From IMG/VR virus record IMGVR_UViG_3300032246_000245, positions 1 through 34,141 of that record: DNA of 34,141 nucleotides. One strand, 5' to 3'. Source of the DNA: a virus. The number at the start of each line of letters is the position of its first letter. Position 1 is the first letter of the stretch. A program made the position numbers and the translations under genes. The notes under the pieces were generated by a model. The model saw only the letters and a list, made by a program, of their open reading frames with translations, was not told where the DNA came from and ran no database searches. Shown here piece after piece: positions 18,412 through 33,898 of the stretch.

Positions 18412-20675
18412 TATTGAACCCCGATAATTTTGCCGTCTTGACCTCTAATTACTGTCTTAGGCCTATTGTGTTGTGCGTTGATTGTATCAACTAAAGCAGT
18501 AATAGCATCAGCCATTTGTGCGTTTCCTTGACCAATAGCGTTAGCAATAGGTTGCATTGGATGTTCCATAGCGTGTGCTAGGCTTTCTTCAGTCATATAG
18601 GCTTGTGCGCCATCAGATTCATCAGCACCAATTCTAGCTACTTCAATCTTAGCGCCATTATTGATGTGGGCAAGCAAGACTTGAGTATTGCGTTCAGTCA
18701 TAGACTTCATCTGCGCTACTTTCATCTGCATATCCATGTCCATCTGGTTACGCTGTTCTTCCAACTGGAATTTAAGCTGGTTTTCTTGGGCTTGGTACTC
18801 TTGTTTAGCCTTTTCCAACTCCATTTGCGCCATCATCTTCTGTTGTTCTAGCTGTGACTGCATCTGCATCTGTTGCATCTTAGCCTGGCTATCCATTTGG
18901 GCTTTTTGTAACTCAATAGGCAATGGTTTAGGTTGACCTTCTGCTTGCTGTGCTGCAATACGCAGTTTATCGGCTGTTTCGTCAATAATGCCTTCAAGTT
19001 GCTTACCAGCTTTAAACGCAGTAACGCCAAATTTAAGCATTTCTAAGGCCATAGGCGCTAACTCAGGGGCTTGCTGAACCATTGGCACAGCTTGTTGAAT
19101 AAATCCACCCACAGCTTGTAAGAAAGCCATACGGTCTTGCTTTTCTTGCTGTTCATCTTGGTAAATCATTGAGTCAGATGTGACTTCAATGCGGAAATTC
19201 TTACTAGATTCGTTGCGTAACAGTTCTAAAGCCTGTGGAATATGCACTTTATCTTGGTCAGATAGTTGCATTGCACCAGAAATCTTAATAATCGTGTCAT
19301 CGGTGTAATGATTGCAAATAATCTGCGCTTTAATACATAACAATGAGGTAGCAAAGTCTACAACTGCGTGTTGCTGAGTCTTTAGGCGACCAGCAGCATT
19401 GTTAGATTTGATAATTTGTGCGCCCAATGTTTCATTAGGGTCTGTTTGACCACGCTGAATGTCGGCAATACCCATCAATTCATAAATTTGACCCTTAACT
19501 TGTTCCATTGCTTGATAGCAAGACATCAAAGCAGAAGCAAATGGGGTTAAATCTACAAGGTCAATAGCACCTTTCATGCCTTGCTTTTCAGCAAAAGCCA
19601 TCCAGTTATGTACTGGAATCATAGTGTTATTCTCACCCTCAGAGAACAAGCGCTGTAGTTCAGAGGCCGATGCGTCATACACACCACGCACTTTAAGGGC
19701 GTTAATTAAGCCATCAATTCTGTCACACAGAACATCTAATTCTCTTGCCTGGTCTTGGTAAATAACGAAATCAGGGATTGGTTCAAGGCTATCAGTTGTA
19801 AGGGTAGCGTAAAGGGGTTTAGGACAAGGCCAAAAATTTTCCAACTGAAGTGGGTCATCTCGTTCATCCAGAATCTTTCCGAGGGACTTAGAAATCCACA
19901 GTACTTTTCCTGTTGTTTTGTCCCAGATTTCATAGATTAGCGCCTCATATACACTATCGTCAGACTTGTACGATTGTTTTAAATCATCAGGCTTTGTGTC
20001 CAATGGAATCTTATAGCCTAATTCTTCGCCAAAGCGTTCACATAAGGCAGCACGACTCATATAAACTCTGCGCCATACGGCTGTTACTTCTTCCCAAGTT
20101 CTAGCGATTGTGTGTCCAAAGTCTTTCCAATGGACATAATCTACTGGGCAGCACTCATATTCAATGCGTTCAACAGACTCATTTTCCATACCGCCTTCAG
20201 TTTCGGCTTCATCGGTATCTTCTGTAACTTCAAAACCATCTTCAGGTTCGCCAGGTTCATCAGCAGCAAAGTGTGGTTCATAACGAACCCAAGCTACACC
20301 ACGCCCACCAAGTAAACGGTCTAAAACGCTGTTATTCATAGCGGACTTGTAATCGCCATAATGTTCTAATTCAAACTCTAGCGCCCTCTCTAACATCATT
20401 GATGCTACACGCCCGATAGGGTCGTTATCTCTAAAGCGTCTGCTTACATCAGGTCTTGGAAGTCTAGCAAAGATAGCTGGTTGTATTGTTTGAACATTAG
20501 ACCAAAGGATATTGAACCGTGCATTAGGATTGCGGTCATAGCGACTGTCGTCTTTATATTTCTTAACAATACGGTCAACTCTAGCTTCCCAACGCTTATA
20601 AGTGCGTTCATAGCCCATAATACATTTGTACCAGTCTTCGTATGTGTGGTCGACTGTCGCTTTATCGTTTGCCAT
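18411..20675 (-). CDS. Portal protein (P22-like)
   Basis: A 754-residue portal, the dodecameric ring through which DNA enters and leaves. Features: NARFNILWSNVQTIQPAIFA (about 45-64), RVASMMLERALEFELEHYGD (about 83-102), then the clip/wing region and, at about 590-660, a Gln/Met/Lys-rich coiled coil like the barrel of P22 gp1. I place the start at ATG 20675, overlapping the terminase stop as TGATG, because AGAGGAAG lies six bases upstream; the longer ORF start at 20717 would overlap TerL by 43 bases. It follows TerL and precedes the fibre. Confidence 0.9.
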   Translation of the reverse strand: MANDKATVDHTYEDWYKCIMGYERTYKRWEARVDRIVKKYKDDSRYDRNPNARFNILWSNVQTIQPAIFARLPRPDVSRRFRDNDPIGRVASMMLERALEFELEHYGDYKSAMNNSVLDRLLGGRGVAWVRYEPHFAADEPGEPEDGFEVTEDTDEAETEGGMENESVERIEYECCPVDYVHWKDFGHTIARTWEEVTAVWRRVYMSRAALCERFGEELGYKIPLDTKPDDLKQSYKSDDSVYEALIYEIWDKTTGKVLWISKSLGKILDERDDPLQLENFWPCPKPLYATLTTDSLEPIPDFVIYQDQARELDVLCDRIDGLINALKVRGVYDASASELQRLFSEGENNTMIPVHNWMAFAEKQGMKGAIDLVDLTPFASALMSCYQAMEQVKGQIYELMGIADIQRGQTDPNETLGAQIIKSNNAAGRLKTQQHAVVDFATSLLCIKAQIICNHYTDDTIIKISGAMQLSDQDKVHIPQALELLRNESSKNFRIEVTSDSMIYQDEQQEKQDRMAFLQAVGGFIQQAVPMVQQAPELAPMALEMLKFGVTAFKAGKQLEGIIDETADKLRIAAQQAEGQPKPLPIELQKAQMDSQAKMQQMQMQSQLEQQKMMAQMELEKAKQEYQAQENQLKFQLEEQRNQMDMDMQMKVAQMKSMTERNTQVLLAHINNGAKIEVARIGADESDGAQAYMTEESLAHAMEHPMQPIANAIGQGNAQMADAITALVDTINAQHNRPKTVIRGQDGKIIGVQ

Positions 20676-22027
20676 CAAATTCTTCCTCTTGAAGTGGATT
20701 GTGGGTTTTGTTTCCACATATCATTCAAACTTACATCCGTTTTACCTACAAACAGCCCTTTAATCGAGTCATCTTTATCAGGCAACTTTGCTTCTTCTTT
20801 CCAGGCTATGGCTGCCATACGACACGCATCTGCACCGTGTGACGCCCAATTATGAAGGGGCTTATCGCTGAAGACCTTTTTATCTTCGTTGTAAGACCTT
20901 TCGTACTGCCTTAAACATTCAATACCTTCTTCACACTTTGGGTCAAACCAGCTTCTCAATAACATCATGCGAGTTGCTTGAATTCCGTCTTGAAGTGACA
21001 AATTTGGCACAATTTTCATTGATTCTATCTTAATTTTAGCAGAAAGTTGTTCAATTATTGACTTTCCTCCACTTGCTAATGTTTTTGCTTTGGCGTCGTG
21101 TGGCAAATAATGGTACTTATATTTAGCACCGTACTTCTGTTCTTGCTGTGCAATATAGCCTGTATAGAATGGAATAGACTGCCCATTGCTTGTATGGTAA
21201 TCAAGGAATCTAACCTCTCCATGCACAACTTGCCATGTCCAAATCGTCGTATCATCGCTGTAACCCAAGTCCCAGCTACTAAATAGGCTGAACATAGGGT
21301 CATACTCAATAGGTGTTATGCGCCCTTGGTCAGTAATTTGACGCATTTCCTTACCGTAGTAAGCACCTAGAATGGCTGACTCAAAGTCACATTCAAATTC
21401 TTGTAGGTATTGGTCTTGAGTCATAGACTTAGCAGCATCTTCTAACTCAGATTGTGGAATGAGGTTTGTTTGGCTTGCCCTTAGTGTCTTAGCGTACCAA
21501 CCATCATCTTTAATAGCATTGCTATATATGTCCCAGAAAGCGTTATGGCCCTTTGGCGTACCAATAAATACAGCCCAACCTAATCTATCTGCAAGTAATG
21601 GTCGGATGATTTCGCCCCATATTCTAGGTCGCATATCAGCATACTCATCCAAAACAATGCCATCAAGGTAAAGGCCACGCAAAGAATCAGCATTATCAGC
21701 GCCAAAAAGACGAATCCTAGCGCCATTGATTAGTTCCACCCATAGTTCAGATTGGTTGGCTTTAGCCATAACAGGCTTAGAAAAGCGTAATAGATAGTCC
21801 CAAGCAATGTTCTTAGCTTGGCTGTAATAAGGGGCAACATAAGCATACCGACCATCTTCTTTGTTTTCAATAAGTGCCTTATAGATTAACTCATTTATAC
21901 ATGAAACAGTCTTTCCACATCTACGATGGGCTACTATGACCGCCCAACGCTGTTGTCTGTCGTGGAAATCTAGGAATACATCTCTTGGTTGGTAGTCTAG
22001 TTCTACCTCTTGGACTATTTCATCCAT
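20675..22027 (-). CDS. Terminase large subunit (packaging ATPase/nuclease)
   Basis: A 450-residue terminase that pumps DNA into the prohead and cuts it. Walker A is AHRRCGKT (33-40), Walker B LDGIVLDE (121-128), followed by the coupling motif region FIGTPKG (154-160). The RNase H-like nuclease domain shows SWDLGYSDDT with Asp253 as metal ligand, HD at 309-310 and a conserved C-terminal HNWASHGADACRMAA. The ATG at 22027 overlaps the methyltransferase stop by 8 bp with no ribosome site, implying coupled translation. Packaging type (headful or site-specific) cannot be told directly; circular permutation suggests headful. Confidence 0.93.
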   Translation of the reverse strand: MDEIVQEVELDYQPRDVFLDFHDRQQRWAVIVAHRRCGKTVSCINELIYKALIENKEDGRYAYVAPYYSQAKNIAWDYLLRFSKPVMAKANQSELWVELINGARIRLFGADNADSLRGLYLDGIVLDEYADMRPRIWGEIIRPLLADRLGWAVFIGTPKGHNAFWDIYSNAIKDDGWYAKTLRASQTNLIPQSELEDAAKSMTQDQYLQEFECDFESAILGAYYGKEMRQITDQGRITPIEYDPMFSLFSSWDLGYSDDTTIWTWQVVHGEVRFLDYHTSNGQSIPFYTGYIAQQEQKYGAKYKYHYLPHDAKAKTLASGGKSIIEQLSAKIKIESMKIVPNLSLQDGIQATRMMLLRSWFDPKCEEGIECLRQYERSYNEDKKVFSDKPLHNWASHGADACRMAAIAWKEEAKLPDKDDSIKGLFVGKTDVSLNDMWKQNPQSTSRGRI

Positions 22028-22778
22028 ATATACGTTTTAAGGCTATTTCTAGGTATTCAGGACTTATTTCTATGCCTACAAACCTACGGTTTAATTGTTT
22101 GGCTACTTTTCCTGTAGTGCCGCTACCAAGAAAACAATCTAATACTGTGTCACCTTCATTTGACCAAGAAACAATGTGGTCATGCGCCAATGACTCTGGA
22201 AACATGGCTGGGTGTTTTTCTTTAATATTGCCTTTATTTGTGGCAAATTTCCATATATTCCACCTAATGCCAAACTCTTTAATATCTTGACCGAAACAAG
22301 CCATTTTTTGCGTAGAACCATCAGGGTTTCTAACTGTGCCAGTTACTTTTCTGCCAAAACTTACATTTTTTCTATCGGCAATCAAATTTAATGTTTTTGG
22401 TTTGCTTTTACTTAATACAAACATATATTCAAATGATTGTTGGTATCTATTTTTATCAGGAAAAGCTATGCCATCTTTTTCATAAATCATGGTGTCATAA
22501 AGATTAAAGCCTATCTCTTTGAAATATAAGGCTTGTTTAAATGATGTCCCTGTTTCTGAACCATTAATTGTGGCATCTCCTACCACCCAGACAACCACGC
22601 CACCATCTTTGGTGACTCGATATAACTCTTTAGCTATGCCTTCAAAGTCAAATGAATAGCCATTGTATGTGCGTAGATTGTCGTAAGGTGGGCTTGTAAC
22701 AGTTAAATTAATGCTTTGGTCTGGCAAAGACTTCATAACCTCAAGGCAATCCCCTAGTCTAAGGTCTATTTCTTCCAA
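22020..22778 (-). CDS. Site-specific DNA methyltransferase (beta-class, N6A/N4C)
   Basis: A 252-residue amino-methyltransferase. Catalytic motif IV is TSPPYDN (28-34) and the AdoMet motif DCFLGSGTTG (214-223) lies near the C-terminus, the beta-class order; KHPAMFPESL (188-197) is also typical. It would methylate adenine N6 or cytosine N4 in a sequence we cannot tell. No restriction partner is adjacent. It starts with TTG at 22778 inside the 3' end of TerS and overlaps TerL by 8 bases, so the three are one translation unit. Expected role: protecting phage DNA from host restriction, or marking the packaging site. Confidence 0.88.
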   Translation of the reverse strand: MEEIDLRLGDCLEVMKSLPDQSINLTVTSPPYDNLRTYNGYSFDFEGIAKELYRVTKDGGVVVWVVGDATINGSETGTSFKQALYFKEIGFNLYDTMIYEKDGIAFPDKNRYQQSFEYMFVLSKSKPKTLNLIADRKNVSFGRKVTGTVRNPDGSTQKMACFGQDIKEFGIRWNIWKFATNKGNIKEKHPAMFPESLAHDHIVSWSNEGDTVLDCFLGSGTTGKVAKQLNRRFVGIEISPEYLEIALKRIYG

Positions 22779-23086
22779 GACACCACCATGCGTTGTGGGG
22801 CTTTTTCATCGCCTACTACTTCAGTTCTAGCTAGTTTAGGCACAGCGTATTCAACCATGTTCTGTACTATGTCGCACGCTTTACCAGGGTTAGGCAAAAC
22901 AATGTACTTTCCAGTTTCATCGTCTTTAAGGCCTTCAGCCGTGTTATACAGCCATGTTTGAAGATAAGGTAGGTTGGCATCAAGTAATGCTTTAACAGCC
23001 TCTCGTGCCTCGGCAGTAGCCTTGTTAGGCGTTCCTGAAGTGCGACCACCTGTCTTTTTTCTAGTTTTATCTACTTTAGATTCCAT
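22766..23086 (-). CDS. Terminase small subunit
   Basis: A 106-residue protein starting MESKVDKTRKKTGGRTSGTP then NKATAEAREAV, the GGRxxGxPNKxT opening seen in many phage small terminase subunits, which bind the packaging start site and hand DNA to TerL. The rest is helical. It precedes TerL, separated only by the coupled methyltransferase gene. Identification is from the opening motif, length and position; an alternative is a related DNA-binding protein. Confidence 0.75.
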   Translation of the reverse strand: MESKVDKTRKKTGGRTSGTPNKATAEAREAVKALLDANLPYLQTWLYNTAEGLKDDETGKYIVLPNPGKACDIVQNMVEYAVPKLARTEVVGDEKAPQRMVVSWKK

Positions 23087-26405: not shown

Positions 26406-26699
26406 TCATTCGCTAGTTCCTTTTCCAAGTCTTTTATCTTGTCGTTCCAATAACGCCTCGCAGGTAATCCCGTGTTTATCTTCCCAAGCGTTGACACCCA
26501 TTCGGTGAAGACTATCATTTCCATTCCTATGGTGTTCTGGGCATAATGCAAGCACAGGGGATGCAGACCGAACATTTCCATATCTCCTAACATGATGGAG
26601 TTCTGACGGAGTGCCTTCAAACCCATAGACTTCGGCGCATAAAATACATCCGAGTTCGGCAATCTTGTTAAGACGCTTCTTTTCATCTTTTGTAGCCAT
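26406..26699 (-). CDS. Ref-like HNH nuclease
   Basis: A 97-residue protein with CILC (18-21), ELHHVRRYG (33-41), ALCPEHHRNG (51-60) and NDSLHRMGVNAWEDKHG (61-77), the pattern of phage P1 Ref, a RecA-dependent HNH endonuclease, and of its short phage relatives. Four Cys/His residues bind zinc. Only the catalytic module is present here; P1 Ref has an additional N-terminal part. It overlaps the next nuclease gene by 17 bases. Confidence 0.82.
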   Translation of the reverse strand: MATKDEKKRLNKIAELGCILCAEVYGFEGTPSELHHVRRYGNVRSASPVLALCPEHHRNGNDSLHRMGVNAWEDKHGITCEALLERQDKRLGKGTSE

Positions 26700-27075: not shown

Positions 27076-27251
27076 TGCTTAATCCATTGTTCTTTCAATG
27101 CCCTTACGCTTGCTATTTCAAGTCTAATAGTTTCGTCAGCTAATTCATGGGCTATTTTTGTAGCTTTTTCATAATCCCATTTAAGTGTGGCGTTATGGTA
27201 TTTTTTAAGAAGTTTTTGAATTTTAAGGTAATTTTCTGAGTAATCACTCAT
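27072..27251 (-). CDS. Small helical protein, unknown
   Basis: A 59-residue ORF found by direct reading: MSDYSENYLKIQKLLKKYHN and on to VRALKEQWIKQ, all helix-forming. It is joined by ATGA overlaps both upstream (27248-27251) and downstream (27072-27075), so the chain of genes is unbroken. The function is unknown. Confidence 0.75.
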   Translation of the reverse strand: MSDYSENYLKIQKLLKKYHNATLKWDYEKATKIAHELADETIRLEIASVRALKEQWIKQ

Positions 27252-27577
27252 TTGGTTAGTCTTTCAATATTACGGTTGTTAGCTTGTTCTGTGCGCCAGG
27301 CTTCAAATCTCATCTTGGCTGCTTCTAGTTGCCATTTTAACGCTTCTGTTTGTTCAGTTGCCGTTCCAATAGCTTTGCATAAATCTTGGTACTCTTGGCT
27401 GCGATAAGCCTCTCTTTCTTGCGCCCCCAAAGACTGTTCGTCTGTTTGCGCCATTTTAATCGCCTTAAGAGAACTTTTAAACGCTTCAAGTTGGGCCAAT
27501 TCACCCTTTGCTTTAGCATACGCTGGCGCAGTTTTGAATATGAAGTCGATTGCGTCATTTGGGTCATAGTCTTTCAT
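27248..27577 (-). CDS. Conserved phage protein with EAWRTEQANNR motif
   Basis: A 109-residue helical protein. The block GAQEREAYRSQEYQDLCKA (about 51-69) and WQLEAAKMRFEAWRTEQANN (82-101) match a family common in phages of proteobacteria (forms of 'AQEREAY...WRTxEANNR'), which has no proven function. A ribosome site GGA precedes the ATG, which starts immediately after the Mom-like stop (27578). Confidence 0.7.
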   Translation of the reverse strand: MKDYDPNDAIDFIFKTAPAYAKAKGELAQLEAFKSSLKAIKMAQTDEQSLGAQEREAYRSQEYQDLCKAIGTATEQTEALKWQLEAAKMRFEAWRTEQANNRNIERLTK

Positions 27578-28237
27578 TTAAATTCCAAATAGTAAAGTTT
27601 GCGTTTGAACAGAACCACCAGAATCATATTTTTTGCTATCACCTTTTGGGTATGGTTCTATTTTGTATTTCAACAATTTGTTCATTTCTTTTTTTTGTTT
27701 TTTATCACCATGAAAATATATATACCTATGTTTTCTACTTCTTTCGGTGTAATAAAAATCATCACCATACTTTTCTTTAATGCTTTCTAAAGTCATTCCA
27801 TCGCTAATTGTTTTACTGTGTTTATGTTCTAATCCTTTTATAGTCCAATCAACTCTATTTGCAGAAAGTCCTGTATATAAAAAATTAGTAGCTTGATAAA
27901 CATAACCTACATGGCCTTGGCCCATATCGGCATAAGAAACAACAATGGTTGGTTTTGGTAATTGTTTAATAGAATTTGCAACTAAAAAACTTGCTTGATT
28001 TTTGGCGTTATCCATTAAACAAACTCTATTTAATTCCAAAACTTTATCTGAATATTCTTTTCCACAAATTCCCATACACAAAGATGGAGAAGCTGGAATT
28101 CCATAAGTGACTACACCAATTAATTGATTGTTTTCATAAAGACCATAAGCAAACATAATTTGTGGAATTCTTTTTGCGTAATGTTTTTCAAGTAACCAAG
28201 GGGCTACTTCTTCGTTTTTGATTGGCAACACAATCAT
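27578..28237 (-). CDS. Mom-like DNA modification protein
   Basis: A 219-residue protein of the Mom/GNAT-like type. Marks: LELNRVCL (67-74), NQASFLVANSI (80-90), SYADMGQGHVGYVYQATNF (101-119), and KHRYIYF (169-175). In phage Mu, Mom converts adenine to a modified base that blocks many restriction enzymes. I take ATG 28237, the second Met of the longest ORF, because it overlaps the stop of the upstream membrane gene as ATGA; the 16 residues before it are out of place. Mu needs the Com regulator, which I do not see. Whether the modification is identical is not known. Confidence 0.85.
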   Translation of the reverse strand: MIVLPIKNEEVAPWLLEKHYAKRIPQIMFAYGLYENNQLIGVVTYGIPASPSLCMGICGKEYSDKVLELNRVCLMDNAKNQASFLVANSIKQLPKPTIVVSYADMGQGHVGYVYQATNFLYTGLSANRVDWTIKGLEHKHSKTISDGMTLESIKEKYGDDFYYTERSRKHRYIYFHGDKKQKKEMNKLLKYKIEPYPKGDSKKYDSGGSVQTQTLLFGI

Positions 28238-28380
28238 TTGAGGGCCAACCACAATCCAATCTGGGCAAAGGCATAGCCACCCCAAATCATAGCGTTAGAT
28301 GTAGCGCCTTTTTTTAATTGTGCAATACAAACAATTAAATATCCAAGTCCTGTTGCCCCAACAATGATTTTTTCCAACAC
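28234..28380 (-). CDS. Small two-TM membrane protein coupled to the Mom-like gene (GTG start)
   Basis: A 48-residue ORF found by direct reading: two hydrophobic helices (about residues 5-20 and 31-47) around LKKGATSNA. It starts with GTG at 28380 after AAAGGGG, and its TGA overlaps the Mom-like ATG (28234-28237), so translation of the two is coupled. No family was recognised. A 46-base overlap with the 70-aa gene suggests heavy compaction. Possible roles are a small membrane inhibitor, or an uptake/anchor partner of the modification step; neither is shown. Confidence 0.6.
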   Translation of the reverse strand: MLEKIIVGATGLGYLIVCIAQLKKGATSNAMIWGGYAFAQIGLWLALK

Positions 28381-28547
28381 CCTTTTTCCCCTTTGTTGCC
28401 TAATTTAAATTGTTCGTAAAAATCATCCCACATTTTTTGAGAAAATTTTGTTTTAAGAATATATTTTCTAAATTCTTTTAAACCCATTTCATATCTATAT
28501 TTAATGAGTTGCCTTACTCCACACTCATGTTTAGCTTGTTCATACAT
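28335..28547 (-). CDS. Small conserved phage protein (ECGVRQLIKYR type)
   Basis: A 70-residue protein, ECGVRQLIKYRYEMGLKEFR (8-27), then FYEQFKLGNKGEKGCW (about 43-58), a pattern I recall from many small phage proteins of unknown role. It overlaps the upstream gene by 34 bases. No ribosome site is evident, so it is likely coupled. Confidence 0.65.
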   Translation of the reverse strand: MYEQAKHECGVRQLIKYRYEMGLKEFRKYILKTKFSQKMWDDFYEQFKLGNKGEKGCWKKSLLGQQDLDI

Positions 28548-28885
28548 TTAGCTTTTAATGTTGCATAGGTGTCGTAGCCGTTGCCCATGATGCCCAACTC
28601 CCTAGCTTTAGCTTCAATACCTTCATTACTAAACATCCATTTCTTGTCAATTTTTTCTTTTTTGGGTTCAATAACCAATTCATCTTCCCAGCGTTCAGCG
28701 TTAAGCCAAGTGCTTGCATGGGGTATAAATTCTAACTCAGTTTCTTTTGTTTTCCAGTATAGACAATGTTCATCTATTGCTTTGCAAGCGTCTAATTGCT
28801 GTTGTTCTGTAAGTCGTGCAAATGCTTTTCTGGCTACTGCTTTGGCTACTTTTCTAGGATATAAAGCCCAAAATTCGTCAAACAT
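28514..28885 (-). CDS. Replication-associated domain protein (FWALYPRK/HASTWLN)
   Basis: A 123-residue protein. DEFWALYPRKVAKAVARKAF (3-22) and FIPHASTWLNAERWEDELVI (53-72) form a domain usually found at the C-terminus of phage replisome-organiser or DnaT-like proteins. Here the domain stands alone with a short charged tail; no primase, helicase or polymerase is recognised elsewhere, so the phage probably depends on the host replisome, and this could be the loader. That is an inference. Confidence 0.7.
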   Translation of the reverse strand: MFDEFWALYPRKVAKAVARKAFARLTEQQQLDACKAIDEHCLYWKTKETELEFIPHASTWLNAERWEDELVIEPKKEKIDKKWMFSNEGIEAKARELGIMGNGYDTYATLKAKCMNKLNMSVE

Positions 28886-29065: not shown

Positions 29066-29367
29066 TTAATTCCCCTTAAATGTGTACTCGTTATTGAGTA
29101 AATGTAGTTTGCCCTATAGGTTTTAAAGAATCCACTAGTATTTGTACCTAGTTGCTTTAATACCACTTCCAAGAGGTTTAAGCACACCTAGCCTACCTAA
29201 GTGTGCCTTCAAATGCTTCCATTGAGGAATCGCATCACCCGACAGTCTTGCATGGTATAGGCACTATCTTCGCCACCTATGTTGCGCTGTTTCAACCATT
29301 ACCCCCAGTAGCGCTGTAAATCCTATCCCCTGGTATGTCGTTAGAGCCTCGAGATAGGAAAGTGAGT
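29066..29367. other. Noncoding stretch with hairpins between repressor and leftward operon
   Basis: About 300 bases without a convincing ORF on either strand. It contains a stem-loop of ten positions with nine pairs (29182-29206), two copies of GCGCTGT (29284-29290 and 29311-29317), and a 7-base inverted repeat TCCTATC/GATAGGA (29321-29327, 29351-29357). It should hold the leftward promoter and perhaps a regulatory RNA or the origin; none can be named. Confidence 0.6.
29182..29206. repeat. Stem-loop in the noncoding stretch
   Basis: Arms GCACACCTAG and CTAAGTGTGC (nine of ten positions pair) with a 5-base loop. No T-tract follows on either strand, so it is not an intrinsic terminator; an operator, RNA structure or processing site is possible. 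Confidence 0.65.
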
Positions 29368-33406: not shown

Positions 33407-33898
33407 ATGGCTGACCAAATTATAACTCAAGAATTTTTACAAAAAATGTATGAATACCGTGATGGTGTTTTATACAGAATACCTCAAACAAAAAGATGTA
33501 AGCCTAATTTAATTGCTGGACATCAAAGAAAAGATGGTTATTCTAGGGTTTCTATAAACAATAAATACTACTATGTTCATCGTTTAATTTATATGATGTT
33601 TCATGGAGAAATGCCTGTACAAATAGACCATATTGATGGCAATCTATCTAACAACAAAATAGAAAATTTAAGAAAAGCTGACAATACAAAAAACAGTTTT
33701 AATAAAAACTTATATAAATCAAATACATCTGGCGTAAAAAATGTTTATTGGGATAAAAATTGTAAAAAATGGGCAGTTTTAATTCAAGCGTTTGGCAAAA
33801 AAAAGTATTTAGGACTTTTTAAAGATTTAGAATTGGCGGAATTAGTGGCAATAGAAGTTAGAAACAAATATCATAAAGAATATGCTAACCATTTCTAG
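33407..33898 (+). CDS. HNH-AP2 homing-type endonuclease
   Basis: A 163-residue free-standing endonuclease: VHRLIYMMFHG (57-67), IDHIDGNLSNNKIENLRKAD (73-92), then an AP2-like DNA-binding domain (about 107-145, SGVKNVYWDKNCKKWAVLIQ and KYLGLF). Such HNH-AP2 proteins cut phage genomes lacking the element and spread it. Here the gene lies alone, opposite to the late genes, between the lysozyme and its terminator; its 3' end overlaps the lysozyme 3' end by 14 bases. AGGAG precedes the ATG. Confidence 0.88.
   Translation: MADQIITQEFLQKMYEYRDGVLYRIPQTKRCKPNLIAGHQRKDGYSRVSINNKYYYVHRLIYMMFHGEMPVQIDHIDGNLSNNKIENLRKADNTKNSFNKNLYKSNTSGVKNVYWDKNCKKWAVLIQAFGKKKYLGLFKDLELAELVAIEVRNKYHKEYANHF

Follow-up and report, generated by a model that had tools for sequence, protein, structure and literature searches.

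The Mom homologue of this phage genome probably fills a one-gene exchange slot for modification (anti-restriction) genes, the content of which would be swapped by recombination and translated by coupling to an upstream membrane micro-gene, designated mic. The window, i.e., the whole stretch of DNA analyzed here, is a 34,141-bp virus record (IMG/VR IMGVR_UViG_3300032246_000245), whose TerL is nearest to those of HTVC010P/P26218-like and uncultured phages (about 40 to 43% identity). The minus strand carries the gene order U > U2 > mic > mom > D (Table 1). The two open reading frames from which an earlier note on this DNA had started, encoding 219 and 48 amino acids, are both present at its coordinates and share the ATGA.

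Table 1. Coordinates of the slot region and of other features of the window
Feature	Position	Strand	Description
TerL	20675-22027		
Second modification gene	22020-22778	-	N6/N4 DNA methyltransferase directly upstream of TerL, outside the slot; PF01555, E = 8e-47
TerS call	22766-23086		Position and weak match only
RecA-dependent-nuclease-like gene	26406-26699		
D	27248-27577	-	109 aa, function not assigned; bounds the slot on the right; ATG directly follows the mom stop
mom	27578-28237	-	219 aa, ATG start; Mom-family GNAT-fold DNA modification protein; fills the proposed exchange slot
ATGA seam	28234-28237	-	mic stop overlaps the start of the slot gene
mic	28234-28380	-	Micro-gene for a 48-aa membrane protein of two helices; starts with GTG; bounds the slot on the left
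mic Shine-Dalgarno (SD) site AAAGGGG	28388-28394	-	7 nt before the GTG; read from the sequence
U2	28335-28547	-	70-aa conserved gene upstream of mic, 46-nt overlap with mic; synteny U > U2 > mic > slot > D
U	28514-28885	-	123 aa; resembles the C-terminal part of phage replication-initiation/primosomal proteins; PHROG 270, E = 2e-17; PHROG 9327, E = 2e-14
Rfam RF02932 match	29237-29360	-	Betaproteobacteria-1 RNA; 92.5 bits (gathering threshold, 49.4)
HNH-like ORF	33407-33898		Spotted by eye

The RF02932 match lies just downstream of a Cro/YdaS-like gene and upstream of the slot-bearing operon, which suggests that the host is a betaproteobacterium and that the phage carries a copy of the Betaproteobacteria-1 sRNA.

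The 219-aa protein is a member of the Mom family

The 219-aa protein is a genuine member of the Mom family. Profile searches, the check proposed in the earlier note, bore out its Mom assignment with matches to PF25680 in Pfam (136.7 bits against a curated cutoff of 27.1; E = 1.1e-39) and to PHROG 1384, "Mom-like DNA modification protein" (E = 7e-59), and a phmmer search against the PDB returned Mu Mom (8bv8) as the sole match (E = 7e-11). The blocks that the note had singled out as Mom-type are true family motifs, as ELNR and SYAD..GYVYQATNF are invariant or almost so across 26 homologues and pair in the alignment with ELNRMWL and SFADERCGRAGVVYQASNF of Mu Mom. A Foldseek search with the AlphaFold2 model of the protein (pLDDT, 84) ranked 8bv8 first (E = 1e-10), and the fold Z score of this predicted model to 8bv8 is 19.0 over 174 residues, with the next acetyltransferase at 12.7. 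Mu residues H58/Y59, S124, D149, and Y159 correspond to H19/Y20, S83, D104, and Y114, and residues E68 to R71 are also identical to the aligned residues of Mu Mom; H19/Y20, E68 to R71, D104, and Y114 are invariant across the 26 homologues. Ser124 of Mu is the residue altered in the inactive mutant S124A, according to the title of 8bv8. A search of NCBIfam gave no model for Mom or for the unknown slot proteins. Membership in the Mom family points to adenine as the base that the protein would modify.

A shorter Mom-like protein (175 aa; PF25680, E = 2e-13) fills the slot of one locus (L100) alone and stands upstream of a full mom in two others (L017 and L019).

The micro-gene mic is not tied to mom

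mic is a real gene and more than a chance ORF, with a median dN/dS of 0.068 (1,149 pairs). Highly similar relatives come from about 80 contigs, and more distant ones from hundreds more. The earlier note's reading of a GTG start behind a strong ribosome site and of a two-helix protein holds, the AlphaFold2 model being a helix hairpin (helices at residues 2 to 23 and 27 to 46; pLDDT, 96). The protein is hydrophobic and contains one Cys. For the micro-protein P0002, Pfam gave no match and PHROGs only a chance-level one (E = 0.12), while five divergent members of its family matched no PHROGs family at an E value of ≤10.

The earlier note also saw the micro-gene as occupying the upstream position of mom. 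A membrane micro-gene does stand where a Com-like gene would, but the loci do not support it as the leader of Mom itself, since most mic-bearing relatives have another modification gene, or nothing, behind mic. Conservation of the micro-gene beside mom homologues, a further check that the note had suggested, was not found: most of the close Mom relatives lack mic. Among the 80 closest (80 to 97% identical), most mom genes follow a replication-initiation, a primosomal, or an unrelated gene, here too often via ATGA, and several occupy a different slot, between U and U2. Because most close relatives sit behind other genes, mic is neither required by nor specific to mom. Loci found with mic as the query were mostly without mom and carried other modification genes or none at the same stop codon. 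The mic family is also present in hundreds of other phage contigs, and those sampled have another gene behind mic.

A second branch of the micro-protein (MSAWLII...) returned more than 580 matches. In the loci read (L042, L050, L054, L160, and similar ones), it is mostly followed by a conserved gene (MHWNHRVVDF...) through a TAATG junction; the micro-protein family is therefore widespread and independent of the slot.

One position holds a range of modification genes

After three further scans, the set comprised 113 nonredundant IMG/VR loci with the order U2 > mic > .. > D, all on metagenomic contigs and retrieved by similarity to proteins of the window. The slot was empty in 49 and occupied in 64. 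It held a C5 methyltransferase (PF00145) in 27 of the 113 loci, a phrog_757 DNA methyltransferase in 12, Mom in 8 (a count raised by the loci that the Mom query contributed), a phrog_12600 protein in 7, an N6/N4 methyltransferase (PF01555) in 5, an L099-type protein of unknown kind in 2, the shorter Mom-like protein in 1, and small other genes in 2. Nearly all occupied slots contain one gene at a time, the insert being the modification gene alone from seam to seam, and no content class seen includes a nuclease gene inside the slot. Modification-family genes numbered 65 in the slot versus 6 elsewhere in the same 0.94 Mb, as counted with profiles made from the slot genes, which would miss other modification families elsewhere.

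ATGA forms the left seam of 103 of the 113 loci, comprising all 49 empty and 54 of the 64 occupied ones. When the slot is empty, the start of D overlaps the mic stop as ATGA; when it is filled, 49 of 62 slot genes have a stop that overlaps the D ATG, the overlap being 14 or 4 nt. The mic-D locus thus has the marks of an accessory hotspot, namely, conserved flanks, exchanging content, and an empty state.

Two of the content classes are candidate modification enzymes. The phrog_12600 proteins resemble phrog_757 methyltransferases (profile alignment, 86% probability) and show no resemblance to the PF00145 sets built here, and for this reason they are referred to as methyltransferase-like. The other class, the L099-type protein (about 340 aa; loci L099 and L352), belongs to no family and is weakly similar (23% identity) to hypothetical proteins from large phages of Cronobacter and Citrobacter. 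It may be another modification enzyme; that it is a glycosyltransferase is a guess.

Turnover of the slot content

A tree of the left flank requires at least 45 changes of slot content, and a tree of the right flank 48. Left flanks are at least 97% identical in 41 pairs, of which 16 carry differing content. An empty locus (L246) and a locus with a methyltransferase (L257) have left flanks identical at 598 of 600 positions, and together with a third locus the series of empty (L246), C5 (L247), and phrog_757 (L257) slots shares 99.3 to 99.7% identity over 600 nt. Single contigs could be chimeric; the seam recurs across many samples. Mom is among the less mobile occupants, as it accounts for only 3 changes on the left-flank tree.

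The same mic/slot region accompanies very different TerL types (E values of about 1e-250 versus 1e-40; L104, L115, L120, L136, L146, L154, and others), so that the early module seems to move between structural backbones of different kinds.

Signals of probable translational coupling at the seam

SD sites with an energy of ≤-4 precede mic in all 113 loci. They precede only 6 of the 55 slot genes joined by ATGA versus 6 of the 7 nonoverlapping slot genes (P = 1e-4), and the start of D has one in 1 of 49 loci behind an empty slot versus 47 of 62 behind an occupied slot (P = 7e-17), with both P values treating related loci as independent. In the window, mom has no SD site of its own, and neither a promoter-like match nor a terminator-like site was found on the minus strand between mic and mom. 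The mic-slot seam therefore bears the signature of a translationally coupled pair, i.e., an overlapping stop and start with an SD site on the first gene and none on the second. Phages often have ATGA overlaps, and conservation of the last codons of the micro-protein in part dictates that the seam has no SD site, although mom is still left to do without one. Because mic always has a strong SD site, ATGA-joined slot genes mostly lack one, and nonoverlapping slot genes have one, coupled translation by termination-reinitiation at the ATGA is the best reading, and we infer it from this pattern.

The start of Mu mom has been described as hidden in an RNA stem. A conserved stem hiding the start of the slot gene was not found here with synonymous-codon shuffles of 59 loci (mean accessibility z, -0.39). 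The accessibility z of the window is -0.09, and its own junction folds slightly better than the shuffles (z, -1.95).

A second modification gene next to TerL

The earlier note had placed a second modification gene, a methyltransferase, between TerS and TerL. The PF01555 gene directly upstream of TerL is there, although the TerS call itself is weak. A 77%-identical homologue occurs in 1 of 31 relatives (records of 31 to 40 kb, all with a TerL match and giving no completeness), and the slot of that relative is empty. This methyltransferase is a rare accessory gene, and double modification of the genome, as predicted from the sequence, is possible.

Proposed model and alternative explanations

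We propose that the slot is part of an early leftward operon in which the Mom homologue is the current occupant. A ribosome ending mic would reinitiate on the slot gene at the ATGA, so that an incoming gene would need neither a ribosome site nor a promoter of its own, and in an empty slot mic would be coupled straight to D. The content would be exchanged by recombination in the conserved flanks, with U, U2, and mic on the left and D on the right. Differences in restriction systems between individual host cells may keep the pool of modification genes diverse, and Mom would put a bulky group on adenines before packaging.

Another account takes the locus as an ordinary accessory-gene hotspot, in which the ATGA reflects a compact genome and contributes neither to exchange nor to expression. 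Aquatic viruses are known to have variable genomic islands that include DNA-methylation genes (PMC6487183), and lambda-like phages of Mannheimia carry a methyltransferase of varying type directly downstream of the helicase gene (PMC4553209). However, the content of the present slot is almost all of the modification type and not a mixture of accessory genes, nearly every occupied slot has a single gene, and SD sites appear mainly where the overlap is missing; we consider this account unlikely. A stronger version of our own proposal, in which the mic/ATGA seam evolved as a plug-in socket expressing at once any modification ORF without promoter or SD site and the micro-protein also acts in modification or its timing as a membrane analogue of Com, appears quite improbable.

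The micro-protein could instead be a dedicated partner or regulator of modification, acting like Com or tethering the enzyme to the membrane. Such a role would fit its strong conservation, the presence of a known modification family right behind mic in 53 of the 64 occupied slots (60 counting phrog_12600), and the annotation of the translational regulator Com ahead of Mu mom. This is very doubtful given that mic is equally present in the 49 empty-slot loci, that its family occurs in other contexts in the contigs sampled, that most close Mom relatives do without it, and that no conserved occluding stem was found at the seam in the 59 loci. Slot genes, including Mom, might also have arrived with their own mobility, for instance through a homing nuclease, leaving mic as a bystander. 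The window does contain the RecA-dependent-nuclease-like gene and the HNH-like ORF, but with no nuclease in any class of slot content seen and inserts limited to the modification gene, such an origin is scarcely credible. An exchange slot with mic-coupled translation remains our preferred reading.

Significance and comparison with known systems

The loci form a natural series, as phages almost identical in their flanks differ in the modification chemistry encoded between them. With this series, two questions can be put to a direct test, namely, which phage modification is selected by which restriction systems of the host, and by what means a gene new to a phage is expressed without signals of its own. 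The assignment of the membrane micro-gene to Mom is also corrected.

Mom-like proteins of Listeria, Proteus, Roseobacter, Bacillus, and Staphylococcus phages are of the same family, with about 38 to 46% identity among the best matches. The com-mom pair of phage Mu resembles the present arrangement in its Mom homologue, in the very small upstream gene overlapping mom, and in the proposed translational dependence. Mu Com is a Cys-rich, hydrophilic regulator of 62 aa with an ORF annotated as overlapping mom by about 80 nt, whereas here a two-helix membrane hairpin is joined through ATGA, no conserved RNA stem was found, and many different genes stand behind the gene for the hairpin. Identity of mic with com was rejected, as a hydrophobic hairpin with a single Cys contrasts with the Cys-rich, zinc-finger-like Com.

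In the Mu-like prophages FluMu and Pnme1 and the hia5 prophage, an N6-adenine methyltransferase reportedly takes the position of mom, as Drozdz et al. are said to have described in 2012. Unrelated modification genes thus substitute for each other at one locus there as well; in those prophages, methyltransferases of one chemistry replace mom, while the slot accommodates Mom, C5, N6/N4, and other types as well as an empty state, with many switches at one seam. The single-overlap socket, the range of chemistries, the empty state, and the SD contrast were not found in the openly licensed literature searched. The viral islands and lambda-like phages cited above share the accessory hotspot for DNA methylation, which in the lambda-like phages lies just downstream of replication genes, and they differ from the single-gene socket with its fixed stop/start seam and SD-less coupling. 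Exchange of modification genes as such has precedents; what is new here is the single seam, the speed of the exchange, and coupling to a gene that lacks an SD site.
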